Shown here piece after piece: positions 4,073-34,944 of a stretch of DNA of 38,638 nucleotides (position 1 is the first letter of the stretch; each line of letters begins with the position of its first letter). The stretch comes from a virus: positions 1-38,638 of the IMG/VR virus record IMGVR_UViG_3300010392_000147; one strand, given 5' to 3'. A program made the translations under genes and the position numbers. The notes below the pieces were generated by a model that saw only the letters and a program-made list of their open reading frames with translations, was not told where the DNA came from and ran no database searches.

Positions 4073-5769
4073 CAGCTTGTCCCGAGTGTAGGAAGCATGG
4101 TCGGGATCGATCCGGGGATAACCTCGGTGTGTTCTCCGACGGTGTCTTCTGCTTTCGGTGCAAATACCGAGACAAGAAAGAGAATGTGACATCAACTGAA
4201 ACACCAACCCCAAAAACACACAAGCCCTGTGTCACCACGGGGTTAAACTACGAGGCACTACCGCACCGGGCACTAACAGAAGAAACCTGTATCACCTACG
4301 GTATTGCTACAATTGAAGACAAGAACGGGGGGAAGTGGGAAGTATGTTCCTACTTCAACGAGGACAGTACACTGAAAGCCCAGAAGCTGCGGAAGTTTAA
4401 CACTGTCCGTAATGGTTCAGGAACCGTGGATAAAAAAATGTTTATCCTGGGTGACGGGACTAACAAGGGGTTTTTCGGGAAGCACGTATGCCCCTCCGGC
4501 GGTAAGTTCCTAGTTATCACTGAGGGAGAATACGATGCAGCTTCTTACTACGAGGCAACAGGACGCCGGTTCGGTGCTGTGTCTCTCCCAGATGGGGCCA
4601 CCTCAGCGGCCAAAGTAATCGCCAATGACATTGAGTATGTCAACTCGTTCGAACGTGTTATCCTCATGTTTGACAATGACGAAGAAGGGAAGAAAGCAGC
4701 TCTTGAAGCCGCCGCTGTTCTTCGTCCGGGTAAGGCCTACATTGCTAGCCTCCCGCTGAAAGATGCAAACGATTGTCTCAAAGCGAATCAACGCAAAGAG
4801 ATCACAAACGCTATCTGGACAGCGGAGCCCTTCCGACCTGACGGGATTGTTCATGTCTCTGATGTAAAGGTTTTACCTCAGTCATCAGACGGAAACATAT
4901 ACCAGTACCCCTTCCCCTCCATAACAAAGGCAACCTATGGGAGGCGAACCGGAGATCTCAACATGATTACCTCCGGCTCCGGGATGGGTAAGTCAACATT
5001 AGTCAGAAGTATGATGCATCACGACCTGAAAGCAGGGCACAACGTTGGGGCTATCATGCTAGAGGAGCGTATCTCCAAGACTAAGCAAGACATCATGTCG
5101 ATCGAAGCAGGCAAGCCTATCCATAAAATCCTCGCCTCCCGTGTTATCAACGCAGACCTAGAACGTAGTGGTATCGAACCCATTGACTTTGGTACTTTAC
5201 CTGAGCTTACAGATGAGGAGTTCCTTTCCGCTAAAGATTGGATCGACAAACAGAATCTGTACCTATATGATCACTTCGGTTCTATCGACTTAGACGTGCT
5301 GATGAAACGCATTGAGTACTTCCACTACACGTGTGGTTGTAACATAATCTACCTAGACCACGTGTCTATTGTAGTATCAGGTAACGAAGGAGACGAACGG
5401 CGTGATTTAGACAGGCTGATGACGACCCTTAAGTCCCTAGCGGAACGTACGGGGGTGTGTATCACAGCTGTGTGCCACCTAAAGAAGCCCAACGGGCAGC
5501 CTTTCGAAGAGGGTGGCCAGATATCCCTTAATGACATGCGGGGTTCTGGTGCATTGTACCAGCTCGCCGATACCGTGTTAGGTCTTGAGCGTAATCAGCA
5601 ACACGACGACCAACAGTTTGCCAATACTATCGGCGTCCGTTTGTTGAAAGATCGCTTTGACGGGAACACCGGATTAAAAGCCGCCCTTAGATTTAACCGA
5701 GACACCTACACTTTACAAAGCACGGATCTTGACTACTACAAGGCCATGCTTAAACCGAGAAAAGAATGA
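4051..5769 (+). CDS. Primase-helicase (T7 gp4-like)
   Basis: 572 aa, close to T7 gp4 (566 aa). The N-terminus has a four-Cys zinc-binding module: CPEC at residues 9-12 and CFRC about 25 residues later. A TOPRIM fold follows with EGEYDAASYYEA and a FDNDEEGKKA motif. The helicase domain begins around residue 290 with Walker A GSGMGKST, continues with LDHVSIVVSG, and ends with LKDRFDGNTG, the T7-like arginine segment. It should synthesise primers and unwind the fork as a hexamer. ATG 4051 is chosen because AAGGAG lies 11 nt upstream and the zinc motif follows directly. Longer starts at 3919 would read an unrelated frame of the upstream gene. The stop overlaps the next gene (ATGA). Confidence 0.96.
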   Translation: MSSPTRMTACPECRKHGRDRSGDNLGVFSDGVFCFRCKYRDKKENVTSTETPTPKTHKPCVTTGLNYEALPHRALTEETCITYGIATIEDKNGGKWEVCSYFNEDSTLKAQKLRKFNTVRNGSGTVDKKMFILGDGTNKGFFGKHVCPSGGKFLVITEGEYDAASYYEATGRRFGAVSLPDGATSAAKVIANDIEYVNSFERVILMFDNDEEGKKAALEAAAVLRPGKAYIASLPLKDANDCLKANQRKEITNAIWTAEPFRPDGIVHVSDVKVLPQSSDGNIYQYPFPSITKATYGRRTGDLNMITSGSGMGKSTLVRSMMHHDLKAGHNVGAIMLEERISKTKQDIMSIEAGKPIHKILASRVINADLERSGIEPIDFGTLPELTDEEFLSAKDWIDKQNLYLYDHFGSIDLDVLMKRIEYFHYTCGCNIIYLDHVSIVVSGNEGDERRDLDRLMTTLKSLAERTGVCITAVCHLKKPNGQPFEEGGQISLNDMRGSGALYQLADTVLGLERNQQHDDQQFANTIGVRLLKDRFDGNTGLKAALRFNRDTYTLQSTDLDYYKAMLKPRKE

Positions 5770-21246: not shown

Positions 21247-24200
21247 CAAACGACGAACGACGGGGCCTTCTACGGCTCCCTACACAAAGACCAGAAAACG
21301 TCCAACCGACCTTCATCTCGTCACAAGGCCTTCCGTCGTACCGTCCTGACAGCACCGCCTATGGATCAATCGGGACGCGACTACAACAGCAGGCGTCCAC
21401 GGCATTCGACCCATTTGCAGATGACGTCGACCCCCTTACATATGCCCTGAACTCAGTGGCTGGGTGGATCGCTGCAGATGCTAATCGAGGATTCGTAGAC
21501 AGGGCTACACTAGGTATCGAGGAAACCCCCGATGCCTATATTACACCCGAGGGCTCGATCTCGAAAGATGAAGTAACCGGCCCTGACATACCCAAAATCA
21601 TCTCCCCCGGTGTCAAGCACCTACTTGATGAAAGGGGATTTGATTACGAGGCTCTTGAGGACCTTTCGTTTGAAGAGGCCCAAGAAAGGGTTAAGTACTT
21701 TCTTCTCGTCTCCCGACTAGAAGATCAACTTCAAGCAAACACCGAGGGGTGGTTAGAGACGACGGTCGGGGTTGCTGGAACGTTCGGCACCGAGGTGTTG
21801 ACCGATCCTCTAAACATTGCCTCCATCGGGTACGCATCACTAGCAAAGAACGCATCTAAGAAAATTCTGATGAACGCTTCTCAACGTCTCTCAACAAAAG
21901 CAGGAGCAGCTAACGGTCTTACCAAGGTTGAGAAGTTTGTCCTGTCCGCCTCAGAGAGACTTGACGCAAACAAAACGGTTAGTGGTGCTATACTAAATAA
22001 CAACTGGACTCGCAACCACGGAGCGTTGATGCTCGGGTTAGAGGCCGGTACCCTAAACACAGCGGCAGACTTAATGCTGCAAAACCAAACAGACGACATC
22101 CTGGATAAGTACCTAGAGTACGATGAGGGTTGGTGGAGCTTCCAGCAATCAGCAACGTCTGGGTTGTTGGGCCTGGGGTTGGGTTATGGTCTGGGTAAGT
22201 TCTTCTTACCTGGGGCCGACCAGCTCACTAAACGGGATGCAGCAGCTGCTAGACTTCTGTCACCGGAAGACCGAGCAGCCCTAGATGGTCGCCCTACTTT
22301 GTTTGAAGACCGACGCATCGCTCTGGATGCTGAGGACGTGAGTGATGATGCTGTGTTTACTATCATCGAAGGGCACCTCAGTACCTTCACGACTAGCCAG
22401 CGAAACCTACTGAACAGAATGCTGTCAGAATCTACAGATTACGATCTGAAAGAGCTGGCTAAGTTCATGCTTCAGAAACCTACACTCAAAGAGATTCAAA
22501 ATTTCATTGGGTACGTCGACCAGCAGGAACTATTTGCCGCCTCTGTTCGTGTTACACAGCTAGAGGCTGACTACAAGAATCTAGCAACGAAGCGAGCAGC
22601 CGAAGGAAAACCCCTCTCGAACATCGAGAAGCATAACTGGGAAGCTAAAATTCAAAAGGCTAAAGACGAACAAGCTAAGATTGCTTTTCCCACAGCTCCT
22701 AAGGATACAACCCTCAAGCGGTTAGCCCAACAGACAGCAGACCTGCGTGAGCGGGTGATCAAGCTAACCAACGAAAACGCGAATGTAGAAAAGATCAACG
22801 AAGTAATTAAGGAATGGAAGAAGATCGACAAACAACTCCAAGAAGTCCAGACTTCAATCTCAGGAGCGTTTCGATCAGATGACCAGGTTGAGCTGCTTGA
22901 ATTCATTGATAGCTTTGATCGACCCCGCACAGACCGGCTTGACCCCGGTCGCCAGGCGGACCTTATGCGGATTCTATTCCAGACCGGGGATTTCGACTTC
23001 CCCCTTCATAACGGGACAGTAGCCTCTAAGGTTCTCAATAACCGGGTATTCAGCTCTATTGCTTCTCTCGGTACTCGTCGCCACGATGTTGAGCAACTAG
23101 CTTCAAAAAGCAGAATGGCTTCTCTCCTGGCTAATATGATTCACCCACTCGCTCATACTAATTCCAGTATGGTCGGTGGAGAAAGCGTAACCAGTCTATC
23201 CCACCTGTACAGTCGGATACGTGCTCGTATGGAAACATACATAGCCGGACCGACTGAAGCACTTCACCGAAGAGCTGGGGGGAATAAGGCACAGCTGGAT
23301 AGAGATTACATCGACGCAATGCGAGTGGCTGCTGGTATTGACTCTACCGACGACGAGTTGGTAGCCGAGCTAGCGAACGCCTACCGTAAGTTCTACGATG
23401 AGATGGGGCAGTACGGAGCTAGAACTAGCACCTTTGGTGGCTTGCTCGAAGACTTTGTGCACATTACCCTTAACCCCGAAGCAGCCAACAAGCATGGTAA
23501 GATGCTTCGTACTAAGCTAGGGGAGAGGTATAAGAAGACCTATATGGCAAACGACAACGACACACCCCTTCACATTGGGGCTATGATGCGTGCAGAGATT
23601 GTCGATGCCGACGGTAAATATAACGCAGACTTTGGAGATATCGGTAGACTCAAGAAGCTTGAGGATCTTATTGAACTGAAGTTTGCAGACGGGACTAGTG
23701 CCTTTGATCGGTACTTAGATCTGCTGGAAAGCACGCTAGAAGAGCACGCAGCTGCTGCTATCCACAACAAGGTTAACTCCCTAGGGGGTAAAGTGTTAAC
23801 AGCACAAGCCAAATCCCGTGGTGACAGTTCCCAAGCATGGCGGGCTGTTCGGTCAGATCTTCAGCGGAAGATCGAACAAGAGTTCTTCTTGGACCGGGAT
23901 ATCATGGAGGCGGGTGTTGTTGAGCTAAACCCAATCATGAACGGCCTGTCATACAACTTCGGATCTGGTGTGCGTATCGCTCGTCAGGATGCCGTCAATC
24001 GTGTGACAGGACGTACTGACCTAACATGGGAGGGCCTGGTTGAGCTCACTCGGCGAGAGGTGTTCTCCCTGTCACAGGAGACACAAGCCGGGCGAAAGGC
24101 TGCCGAATCGTTAATCGAAACCCTCATGGATGCAGAGCGGGATGTGTCAGGACGCAACATCTCCCTAGGAGAAGGTGAGCTATCTAACCACCTGCTCGCG

Positions 24201-32570: not shown

Positions 32571-32645
32571 GGCCCTATCGTCTAGTCAGGTTTAGGACAG
32601 CCGGCTTTCCGCTGGAAAACGTAGGTTCAAATCCTACTGGGGTCA
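32571..32645 (+). tRNA. trnE: tRNA-Glu(UUC), copy 1
   Basis: 75 nt cloverleaf. Acceptor GGCCCTA pairs with TGGGGTC through two wobbles. The Glu-type D arm is GTCTAG...GGAC, the anticodon loop CTTTCCG (anticodon TTC), and the T arm GTAGG TTCAAAT CCTAC. The base after the anticodon is C rather than the usual purine. The first anticodon-stem pair is a G-A mismatch. CCA is not encoded. Confidence 0.85.
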
Positions 32646-32741
32646 TTGTGGGAATCCCGAAGCCACGTTAAACTAAATGAGGGTGCGATGTGTATGGTTG
32701 CCTACCTACCCAGCACAACAACAAACAAAAAGGTAGGGATC

Positions 32742-32816
32742 GGCCCTATCGTCTAGTCAGGTTTAGGACACTCGACTTTCCGTTGAGAGACACAGGTTCA
32801 AATCCTGTTGGGGTCA
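32742..32816 (+). tRNA. trnE: tRNA-Glu(UUC), copy 2
   Basis: 75 nt. The acceptor, D arm and anticodon loop are identical to copy 1, but the anticodon stem is CTCGA with TTGAG and the T stem CACAGG with CCTGTT. The stem differences are compensatory, so it folds well. No encoded CCA. A 97-base spacer separates it from copy 1 and contains no credible gene. Confidence 0.87.
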
Positions 32817-32820
32817 TTGA

Positions 32821-32967
32821 TTCTGGTACCCTGAGACTTCATCAGTCTCTTGTACTGTGATAGAAGGAACCAGCGGGTTGAGTGGTAATCTCGTCAGTAC
32901 CACAAGATAGCCCACTCTCTATCACAAAACCCTCAGTGGTAGGGTGACACCCTATGGCTGAGGTTTA
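32821..32967 (+). ncRNA. Structured spacer RNA between tRNA genes
   Basis: Several stems follow each other: GAGACT 32833-32838 with AGTCTC 32844-32849. A long interrupted hairpin has TGTGATAGA 32856-32864 with TCTATCACA 32918-32926, GGGTT 32875-32879 with AGCCC 32909-32913, and GTGGTA 32882-32887 with TACCAC 32898-32903. Then CCTCAG 32931-32936 pairs with CTGAGG 32958-32963, enclosing TAGGGT/ACCCTA. As an alternative, CTGGTACC 32823 can pair with GGAACCAG 32866 around an anticodon-arm-like hairpin whose loop reads TTCATCA. No gene is visible. Confidence 0.5.
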
Positions 32968-33083
32968 GGCCCGGTCGTCTAGTCAGGTTATTAGTAATGC
33001 ACTACCCATCGAAGGGTAGCACGCTGCTAGTAGGACACCCCTCTTTCCGAGGGGAAACCTAGGTTCAAATCCTAGTCGGGTCA
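32968..33083 (+). tRNA. trnE: tRNA-Glu(UUC) with 41-nt D-loop insertion
   Basis: 116 nt. Acceptor GGCCCGG pairs with TCGGGTC, the anticodon stem is CCCCT with AGGGG around CTTTCCG (anticodon TTC), and the T arm is CTAGG TTCAAAT CCTAG. All parts of copies 1 and 2 are present, but 41 bases (32990-33030) are inserted in the D loop between GTCAGGTT and TAGGAC. The insert is itself a hairpin: CTACCC 33002-33007 with GGGTAG 33014-33019, flanked by ATTAG and CTAGT. The rest of the cloverleaf pairs perfectly. Confidence 0.75.
32990..33030 (+). mobile_element. Palindromic 41-nt insertion inside a tRNA gene
   Basis: Bounded by comparison with the uninterrupted copies at 32571 and 32742. The ends ATTAG and CTAGT pair, the centre forms a CTACCC/GGGTAG stem with an ATCGAA loop, and TAG is repeated at the right junction. 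It encodes no protein. It could be a small palindromic element, an intron-like insertion removed from RNA, or a stable D-loop extension. Confidence 0.5.
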
Positions 33084-33085
33084 TT

Positions 33086-33159
33086 GTGGCTGTAGCTTAA
33101 TTGGTAGAGCACTCGGTTGTGGTCCGGGAATGGTGCGGGTTCAAGTCCCGTCGGTCACC
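33086..33159 (+). tRNA. trnH: tRNA-His(GUG)
   Basis: 74 nt, two bases after the interrupted tRNA-Glu. Acceptor GTGGCTG with CGGTCAC, D arm AGCTTAATTGGTAGAGC, anticodon loop TTGTGGT (anticodon GTG), T arm CGGGT TCAAGTC and partner. Base 73 is C. The base before position 1 is T, so the extra G-1 of tRNA-His would have to be added or is absent. CCA not encoded. Confidence 0.88.
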
Positions 33160-33172
33160 TTGGAGGTAAGCA

Positions 33173-33292
33173 ATGCTAATACTCGGTATAATCATCTGTG
33201 TTGTGCTGATGCTGTCTCTCATGGCAGCCCCCCGTCAGGACGCCCGTCCTCGGGAGCCGTTCCCTAAGATTGGAGGGGATGATGATACTTGA
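33173..33292 (+). CDS. Small membrane protein, 39 aa
   Basis: Starts 14 bases after tRNA-His with a strong TTGGAGGT site. One membrane segment at the very N-terminus (MLILGIIICVVLMLSLMAAP) is followed by a short Pro/Arg-rich tail and a final GGDDDT. It overlaps the next gene by 11 nt. Probably an inner-membrane peptide; role unknown. Confidence 0.72.
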   Translation: MLILGIIICVVLMLSLMAAPRQDARPREPFPKIGGDDDT

Positions 33293-33503
33293 AGAAGAGG
33301 CGGTAGACAGAGAGAAGAGGTTCTCTGACATTCAGCTGTTCAGTCTGTTTGTGTCGAAGGTGGGGTCGGGTTGTGTGCTTTACCTAAAGACAAGCCACAA
33401 GCATGCTCTTGAAGTAGGGGAATCAAGTATTCCTTTTGAGTTTAGCAGAACCCTACAGTGCTACCCTGTAAAAGTAACAAGGGTTACATACCACCAAATC
33501 TAG
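33282..33503 (+). CDS. Hypothetical protein, 73 aa
   Basis: GGAGG (33272) is five bases before ATG 33282; ATG 33279 and TTG 33270 are less well spaced. The product begins MILEEEAVDREKRFSDIQLF and continues with short hydrophobic and polar blocks (SLFVSKVGSGCVLYLKTS). It has no membrane helix of full length and no motif I know. It lies between two membrane-protein genes. Confidence 0.65.
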   Translation: MILEEEAVDREKRFSDIQLFSLFVSKVGSGCVLYLKTSHKHALEVGESSIPFEFSRTLQCYPVKVTRVTYHQI

Positions 33504-33511
33504 GAGGTCGC

Positions 33512-33871
33512 ATGTTTCCACAGGTATTGAAGTGTAAAGAACCACCACCGAAGCCTGTTGAGGGTGGCTCTGCTGGTGCTTTCGAAAATCGAGGTCTTCA
33601 CCATGAGTACCAAAGGAAACTGAAAGAGTGGGAACGTAAGGTGTCTATGTATCAGTACCTGAACAACGGTCTCTTCTTTGCCATCATTGCTGTGTCAATG
33701 TGGGCTTCTTTTGATTTCATTCTTGTGTATCTGAAACATACAGATGATATCCCTATTCTGTATAGGAAGTCTTCTTTGATCGCAGCCAAGATACTTTGGG
33801 GCTCAGCCAGTACCGTTGTCTCTGCTTTAGCAGTGATAAATGTTGGATCTTACTTGAACATGTACGATTAA
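33512..33871 (+). CDS. Two-pass membrane protein, 119 aa
   Basis: AGGAGGT precedes ATG 33512; an upstream in-frame start at 33458 would overlap the preceding gene. A Pro-rich cytoplasmic-type N-terminus (CKEPPPKPVEGG) and a charged helix lead to two membrane segments: NGLFFAIIAVSMWASFDFIL and ILWGSASTVVSALAVINVGS. No family recognised. Two-pass topology would suit a holin or an exclusion protein, but the early-type location argues against lysis. Confidence 0.75.
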   Translation: MFPQVLKCKEPPPKPVEGGSAGAFENRGLHHEYQRKLKEWERKVSMYQYLNNGLFFAIIAVSMWASFDFILVYLKHTDDIPILYRKSSLIAAKILWGSASTVVSALAVINVGSYLNMYD

Positions 33872-33881
33872 TGGAGGAATC

Positions 33882-34247
33882 ATGAATCATGGAGCGTTAC
33901 CCGCGATTGCGTGCTGTCTTATCCTTTCTCTTGTGGGATGTGGGAACAGTGGTGATGTGTATCTACCTGTTCGTGTGATAGATACCTATGCGATTGGGTA
34001 CACTCATTACTGGGTAGCCGAGGATGAGAATGGGTTCGCGTATACTCGCAGGGGTTACGCATCAGGGGGTTCTAAGGTGCTGCTAAAAATAACGGACGAG
34101 GAGGCGGAAGCCCTTCGCTCGTATTCAAACCAGACAAGGGGGTGTTACTCTTGTCGCTTACAGAGTAGGGCGGAAGAGGCCCTTGTTATAGGAGAATCGA
34201 ATGAGCAACCAAGACAACAACAACACAGCACCGTGCACGAACCCTGA
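33882..34247 (+). CDS. Lipoprotein, 121 aa
   Basis: TGGAGGAATC precedes ATG 33882. A signal peptide (HGALPAIACCLILSLVGC) ends in a lipobox LVGC, so Cys20 would be lipidated. The mature part begins GNSGDVYLPVRV, so it has no Asp at +2 and should go to the outer membrane. It contains two further Cys (CYSC). Phage lipoproteins expressed early commonly block superinfection at receptors, which is an inference here. The last 47 nt overlap the next gene. Confidence 0.78.
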   Translation: MNHGALPAIACCLILSLVGCGNSGDVYLPVRVIDTYAIGYTHYWVAEDENGFAYTRRGYASGGSKVLLKITDEEAEALRSYSNQTRGCYSCRLQSRAEEALVIGESNEQPRQQQHSTVHEP

Positions 34248-34380
34248 CTGTCCCCAGGTGGACGACAACGCAGCAGCAGCAGCCGACACCAATGCAGAAG
34301 CAACAGAGGCTGTCGCTCAGGACGCAGCAGATACACAGCCTGCCGAGCAGGTTGACGAAGCTGTTGCAGATCAGGATTGA
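34201..34380 (+). CDS. Acidic Ala/Gln-rich protein, 59 aa
   Basis: AGGAG lies seven bases before ATG 34201. The N-terminus has a CTNPDCPQ pair of Cys, and the rest is an acidic low-complexity stretch (DDNAAAAADTNAEATEAVAQ and similar). It is probably disordered. Overlaps the lipoprotein 3' end in another frame. Function unknown. Confidence 0.68.
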   Translation: MSNQDNNNTAPCTNPDCPQVDDNAAAAADTNAEATEAVAQDAADTQPAEQVDEAVADQD

Positions 34381-34733
34381 CCATACCCTACACCCGCCCC
34401 AAGCTGGTACTAGGGAGAGATTGCTATGCGAGTTGTATGCCCGCCTTAGGGTAGAGCAACTAACACCACGCCTCTGCAATCCATAGAGGCATGCCCCTTG
34501 GTGGGGGTGTGTCTCTTTTCACGACGCCGTGTCACTTCTGTGATACGACAACACACCACACGGACGAGGCTTTGGCCCGGTAAGCAGATGCGTGAAACAA
34601 GTTTCTAATCCGGGATGGGTAGCGAGCGGTGATGGTGTGTATTTTATGAGTGGTTAAAAGAGAGTCTATTGGTACGACAAACCCGACCGGCAGGGAGACA
34701 TGGCCTGACCAGCCCGCCAGCCGGACTCATATT
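34381..34733 (+). ncRNA. Structured untranslated stretch before second tRNA pair
   Basis: 353 bases without a credible gene. Visible pairings: TACCCTA 34384-34390 with TAGGGTA 34447-34453, GCCTCT 34470-34475 with AGAGGC 34485-34490, CGTGTCAC 34528-34535 with GTGATACG 34540-34547, CCCGG 34576-34580 with CCGGG 34610-34614 enclosing GAAAC/GTTTC, and CCGGC near 34687 with GCCGG near 34719. The short frame following AGGGAG at 34414 stops after seven codons. It resembles the hairpin-rich stretch at 31308-31918 in density. Confidence 0.45.
34493..34520 (+). terminator. Possible weak terminator
   Basis: CCCC with GGGG around TTGGT, directly after the GCCTCT/AGAGGC hairpin, followed by TGTGTCTCTTTT. 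The stem is short and the T-run is four bases, so it is a weaker candidate than the others. Confidence 0.45.
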
Positions 34734-34802
34734 CAGGTAGTAGCTCAGTGGTAGAGCTGGAGATCGCAACTCCGGTCGCAGGTTCAACTCCTGCCTACCT
34801 GA
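34734..34802 (+). tRNA. Short tRNA, anticodon CGC by position (Ala?)
   Basis: 69 nt. Acceptor CAGGTAG and CTACCTG pair perfectly. The D arm is GCTC AGTGGTA GAGC, the T arm GCAGG TTCAACT CCTGC. The anticodon arm TGGAG ATCGCAA CTCCG gives anticodon CGC (Ala codon GCG). It is shorter than usual (no spare base 26, variable loop of about three) and lacks the G3-U70 pair that marks tRNA-Ala. The identity is therefore uncertain. Confidence 0.65.
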
Positions 34803-34869
34803 TTCATGACGGACCCAGTCCTGTTACATCTGGGGGCAGTGAGGACCTGCTACATCACTCCTCGGTACC

Positions 34870-34944
34870 GGCCCTATCGTCTAGTCAGGCTCAGGACATC
34901 TCGTTCTCAACGAGAAGACACAGGTTCAAATCCTGTTGGGGTCA
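34870..34944 (+). tRNA. trnE: tRNA-Glu(CUC), copy 4
   Basis: 75 nt. The acceptor and 5' half are nearly the same as copies 1 and 2 (GGCCCTATCGTCTAGTCAGG), and the T arm is identical to copy 2. The anticodon stem TCTCG pairs with CGAGA around TTCTCAA, anticodon CTC. Here base 37 is the normal A. CCA not encoded. Confidence 0.87.

Follow-up and report, generated by a model that had tools for sequence, protein, structure and literature searches.

According to published descriptions, bacterial-type tRNA genes share a uniform structure, with the exception of self-splicing introns beside the anticodon (PMC4033280). These group I and group II introns lie mainly at positions 37/38 and are long ribozymes. 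Archaeal tRNA genes can contain short noncanonical BHB introns, some of them away from the anticodon loop, and class II tRNAs (Leu, Ser and bacterial Tyr) retain an extra hairpin arm in the mature molecule, between the anticodon and T arms (the variable region). Phages also encode anti-defence tRNAs of deviating sequence: those of mycobacteriophages against VapC (PMC10264068) and of T5 against PARIS/AriB (PMC12409363) are reported as having substitutions within or close to the anticodon arm. We characterize here a phage tRNA-Glu gene with a hairpin of 41 nt in the D-loop. It resembles the group I/II introns in that an insert interrupts a tRNA gene of a bacterium or phage, the archaeal introns in the shortness of the insert and, as we propose, class II tRNAs in the retention of the arm. 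It differs in the length and D-loop position of the insert, and in contrast to the archaeal systems it has no BHB motif, no detected splicing endonuclease and a T7-like phage of bacteria as its carrier. Like the anti-defence tRNAs, it is phage-encoded and deviates in sequence, and its C37 falls into the broad category of anticodon-loop changes found in them; however, it carries a whole D-loop hairpin.

A tRNA-Glu gene with a D-loop hairpin

The window, that is, the whole 38,638-nt stretch analysed (IMG/VR record IMGVR_UViG_3300010392_000147), is a contig of a T7-like phage that encodes a single-subunit RNA polymerase, primase-helicase, DNA polymerase and TerL. A small tRNA array lies at 32571–34944, all on the plus strand. 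It comprises two tRNA-Glu(UUC) genes with normal D-loops (32571–32645 and 32742–32816; RF00005 scores of 45.7 and 51.9 bits), the hairpin-bearing tRNA-Glu(UUC) (32968–33083), tRNA-His(GUG) (33086–33159), tRNA-Ala(CGC) (34733–34803) and a tRNA-Glu(CUC) with a normal D-loop (34870–34944), the last three being called by both ARAGORN and Rfam. Four of the six tRNAs are thus tRNA-Glu (three UUC and one CUC), even though the GAA and GAG codons jointly account for only about 62 per thousand. The spacer directly 5′ of the hairpin tRNA (32817–32967) is predicted to form a series of strong hairpins (−58 kcal/mol, z = −4.55), in contrast to the preceding spacer (z = 0.57).

The cloverleaf of 32968–33083 is that of a complete bacterial-type tRNA-Glu with anticodon TTC, and all 21 stem pairs are intact (acceptor, 7/7; D stem, 4/4; anticodon stem, 5/5; T stem, 5/5). 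ARAGORN made no call for the gene, and Rfam at the gathering threshold returned no match for it on the whole window; both overlook it because of the insert. On a shorter search sequence, RF00005 matched the gene with 37.7 bits (cut-off, 29 bits). The glutamate determinants U11–A24, U13–G22, A46, absence of residue 47 and U34U35C36 are retained; those described for GluRS include U11–A24, U13–G22 with A46, the absence of residue 47, and A37 (PMC9976931).

Comparison with the paralogues and folding place the insert at 32990–33030, between U20a and U20b in the variable beta region of the D-loop. The predicted hairpin consists of an outer stem (32992–32996 with 33025–33029) and an inner 6-bp stem (CTACCC, 33002–33007, with GGGTAG, 33014–33019) closed by the loop ATCGAA (33008–33013). 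Its fold (−14.2 kcal/mol, z = −3.2) was equalled in stability by 1 of 200 shuffles. Without the insert, the D-loop reads AGTCAGGTTTA, identical to those of both upstream paralogues (starting at 32571 and 32742). Relative to the second paralogue, the gene has six double, compensatory changes in its stems plus one single change. These results bear out the initial annotation, which had reported a perfectly paired cloverleaf with a 41-nt hairpin in the D-loop, distinguished it from the introns known in bacterial anticodon loops (PMC4033280), and proposed a covariance-model search and a search for the 41-mer in other genomes. The insert occurs unchanged in a second assembly, IMGVR_UViG_3300006467_000257 (47.7 kb); over 20.3 kb the two sequences are identical except for a single base (position 21783). 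No second copy of insert segments longer than about 9–10 nt was found within the window. A TerL-based search yielded 80 loci, all with ≤36% identity, and no moderately diverged relative of the window phage; ARAGORN found three tRNA-Leu and no other tRNA in 45 of these loci. The tests of hairpin conservation described below therefore come from other phage lineages rather than from the window phage's own relatives.

Hairpins at the same site in other phages

Pattern scans of viral contigs revealed approximately 35 further tRNAs with D-loops of 19–78 nt, belonging to Glu, Arg, Lys, Asn, Gly, Thr, Ala and other isotypes. D-loop lengths in the fetched loci were bimodal (7–11 nt or ≥19 nt). Most of the long loops contain a hairpin that begins shortly 3′ of G18–G19, typically starting at D-loop index 8–10 and ending 2–3 nt before the D stem closes. 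Although the search patterns made no selection for structure, 32 of 35 long viral D-loops gave more stable folds than dinucleotide-shuffled controls (mean z = −1.27); poor folds were seen for the insert of one clade member (L267) and for a few further inserts. Several full-length hairpin tRNAs of 96–100 nt score 62–68 bits as tRNAs. In several cases ARAGORN missed or misnamed tRNAs with the extra arm. With its intact stems and a structured insert between G18–G19 and the 3′ D strand, the window tRNA fits this class. Searches of named phages with four of the hairpin tRNAs (L202, L149, L165 and L188) returned no named record spanning the insert, and the five neighbours inspected were normal tRNAs.

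One contig (L199) carries three such tRNAs (Gly, Thr and Lys) with small hairpins, each with a GAAA-type closing loop. The same phage contig (also represented by L365 and L366) has about 30 redundant, divergent tRNA genes, and at 4857–4985 a tRNA match of 129 nt in which an insert separates the D arm from the anticodon arm.

Two sets of related sequences bear on whether selection acts on the hairpin RNA. In the first, the syntenic phage contigs L018, L024 and L146, an adjacent ORF is 49–51% identical and an HNH gene lies on the other side; all three have a tRNA-Glu with a D-loop hairpin at the same place and with one bulged U, whereas hairpin sequence and length differ. A clade of 11 distinct tRNAs shares the arrangement GTAGCTCAGTGGTNAA-hairpin-GAGC, in which the flanks are nearly invariant and the arms vary. 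In this clade 87% of hairpin positions are paired, compared with 57% when the 3′ arms are shuffled (0 of 10,000 shuffles reach 87%), a comparison that ignores the relatedness of the members and is not a formal P value. Re-pairing in the clade and in the three orthologues implies at least selection against unstructured inserts. Peptidase_M28-like genes occur in both the window's relative (L401:2222–3637) and the L018/L024 family (L024:3360–4298, a match below the Pfam cut-off).

Frequency in viral and cellular genomes

A tRNA-Glu pattern allowing 15–45 extra D-loop bases matched 17 stretches in viral contigs. Four of them are true insertions into tRNAs that are intact in all other respects (L016, the window's own relative, and L018, L022 and L024); the others are chance upstream matches. 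The same pattern matched at least 119 stretches in bacterial and archaeal genomes. From the 119 listed we set aside two partial duplications (L069 and L073) and one archaeal locus (L096), whose genome has other tRNA genes, including several of 140–163 nt, and whose insert is probably an intron. None of the remaining 116 bacterial matches listed is a genuine insert, compared with 4 of 17 viral matches (Fisher's exact test, P = 2 × 10⁻⁴); these rates are rough, given that the scanner demands near-perfect stems and that some counts come from the matches listed only. A scan for longer inserts added L391, and complete viral scans with CGTCTA-type Glu patterns yielded five genuine contigs, including the window's relative. 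With a general GCTC/GAGC D-stem pattern, at least about 22 genuine viral cases of many isotypes were found among the 119 matches listed, and a focused scan added members of one clade. In 398 Pseudomonadota genomes this pattern gave seven matches, six of them upstream chance hits; the sole candidate (G018) was rejected, as it is without an acceptor stem. Most bacterial and many viral pattern matches were discarded as chance occurrences of CGTCTA or AGCTCAG 5′ of a normal tRNA.

Position 37 also deviates. All three tRNA-Glu(UUC) of the window (32571–33083) have the anticodon loop CTTTCCG (CUUUCCG in the RNA), with C37 in place of the determinant A37, a substitution that could make charging less efficient. 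This CUUUCCG loop recurs in the hairpin tRNAs of L024 and L146, and L391 has U37. A pyrimidine at this position is rare: among the fetched loci it occurs in 8 of 401 normal viral tRNAs and in none of 148 cellular tRNAs. The CUUUCCG loop was found in only five contigs in a complete viral scan, including the window's relative and L024; the remaining contigs with C37 have normal D-loops.

Fate of the insert

We consider it probable that 32968–33083 encodes a working phage tRNA-Glu(UUC) whose mature form still contains the hairpin, as an additional arm. This arm would leave the elbow at the beta site 20a/20b, which is naturally variable in length, and the helix would therefore exit without touching the D stem or G18–G19. 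In this position it would leave the Glu identity elements undisturbed, and the tRNA would be charged and would read GAA/GAG beside its two normal paralogues. We infer retention, charging and decoding from the gene itself, and favour a working tRNA with a retained arm because the identity elements other than A37 are kept and the insert lies at a variable site.

The insert could instead be a small intron, cut at the base of its stem, with the halves joined by a ligase such as RtcB to give a normal tRNA-Glu. The insertion is clean, in that its removal restores the paralogue D-loop exactly, and archaeal introns away from the anticodon loop exist (PMC8450103), the archaeal locus mentioned above probably being one. 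RtcB is also encoded in five other D-loop-hairpin contigs from four lineages (G003:117176–118360, G005:18537–19685, G006:3–176, G407:49139–50203 and G417), and that of G005 adjoins its tRNA cluster. However, RtcB is absent from most such contigs, and its frequency (5 of 35, compared with 2 of 50 controls) provides a weak hint at most and might just as well point to tRNA repair. At the locus itself there is no BHB motif, the junction lying in one predicted helix with only 1×1 and 2×2 internal loops; Rfam found no group I or group II intron in the whole window; and searches of the window and of the related 47.7-kb assembly for RtcB, RNA_ligase (PF09414), RNase III and splicing endonuclease were negative. 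For the 41-nt insert, introns of the BHB, group I and group II kinds were thus rejected. Phage-encoded excision also fails as a general rule: in seven records checked, RNA_ligase (PF09414), RNase III and tRNA_int_endo were all missing, and RtcB is patchy; the PF01974 splicing endonuclease is absent from G000 and G008. Because BHB motif, self-splicing intron and a phage ligase or splicing nuclease were all not found, removal by splicing is not supported, and we regard an intron as doubtful.

A neutral insertion is somewhat easier to entertain, although still unlikely: the beta site would tolerate any compact hairpin, and the tRNA would work or be redundant, without benefit to the phage. Two normal Glu(UUC) paralogues lie adjacent, the inserts of different phages are unrelated in sequence and the hairpins are rare overall (the five genuine contigs for the CGTCTA-type patterns). 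The long persistence with re-pairing in the clade and the three orthologues argues against this reading, as does the viral versus bacterial difference among the matches listed. The same spare paralogues, and the failure of ARAGORN and of whole-window Rfam at the gathering threshold to detect the gene, might point to the null hypothesis of a decaying pseudogene broken by insertion, which is very unlikely given the 21 intact stem pairs, the six compensatory double changes relative to the second paralogue and the recurrence of structured inserts elsewhere. An assembly error or chimera is extremely improbable; the contig is metagenomic, but the same sequence occurs in a second assembly and analogous genes occur in many independent contigs.

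The initial annotation had offered a novel element, an RNA removed by processing or a tRNA with a special function. The first does not hold in the form of a mobile hairpin, which we reject, as the insert has no second copy in the window and those of other phages are unrelated in sequence; the second lacks the needed signals, and no enzyme for it was detected in the window phage. The third is the best supported as regards a special structure, given that same-site hairpins recur in unrelated phages and covary.

A possible role in evading host factors

If the hairpin is retained, its likeliest use—and the least certain step of the proposed mechanism—would be to hamper attack on the tRNA by a host factor that grips its elbow, for example a defence nuclease. 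Escape from host factors that target tRNAs is a plausible purpose. AriB of PARIS reads the D-loop through base-specific contacts, and U16C in tRNA-Lys impairs cleavage (PMC12409363); RloC targets tRNA-Glu and tRNA-Gln (PMC3874168); and escape of phage tRNAs from anticodon nucleases by anticodon-loop mutations has been proposed (PMC10264068). The occurrence of C37 together with a D-loop hairpin in two unrelated lineages, although the cases are few, would fit such a role. More tentatively, and as a possibility rather than an expectation, phages may repeatedly evolve tRNAs whose D-loop bears a further arm, which in tRNA-Glu is at times accompanied by a pyrimidine at position 37, so that translation would continue while damaging or modifying host factors lose their grip on the elbow.

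Our literature searches found no published description of D-loop inserts of this kind. The gene does not look broken, and seems to belong to a little-noticed type of phage tRNA that has an additional arm. A recurrent extra arm at this site, if true, would extend the known tolerance of the translation machinery, and D-loop hairpin tRNAs may offer a handle on why phages carry tRNAs, including whether altered D-loops aid escape from tRNA-targeting immunity.
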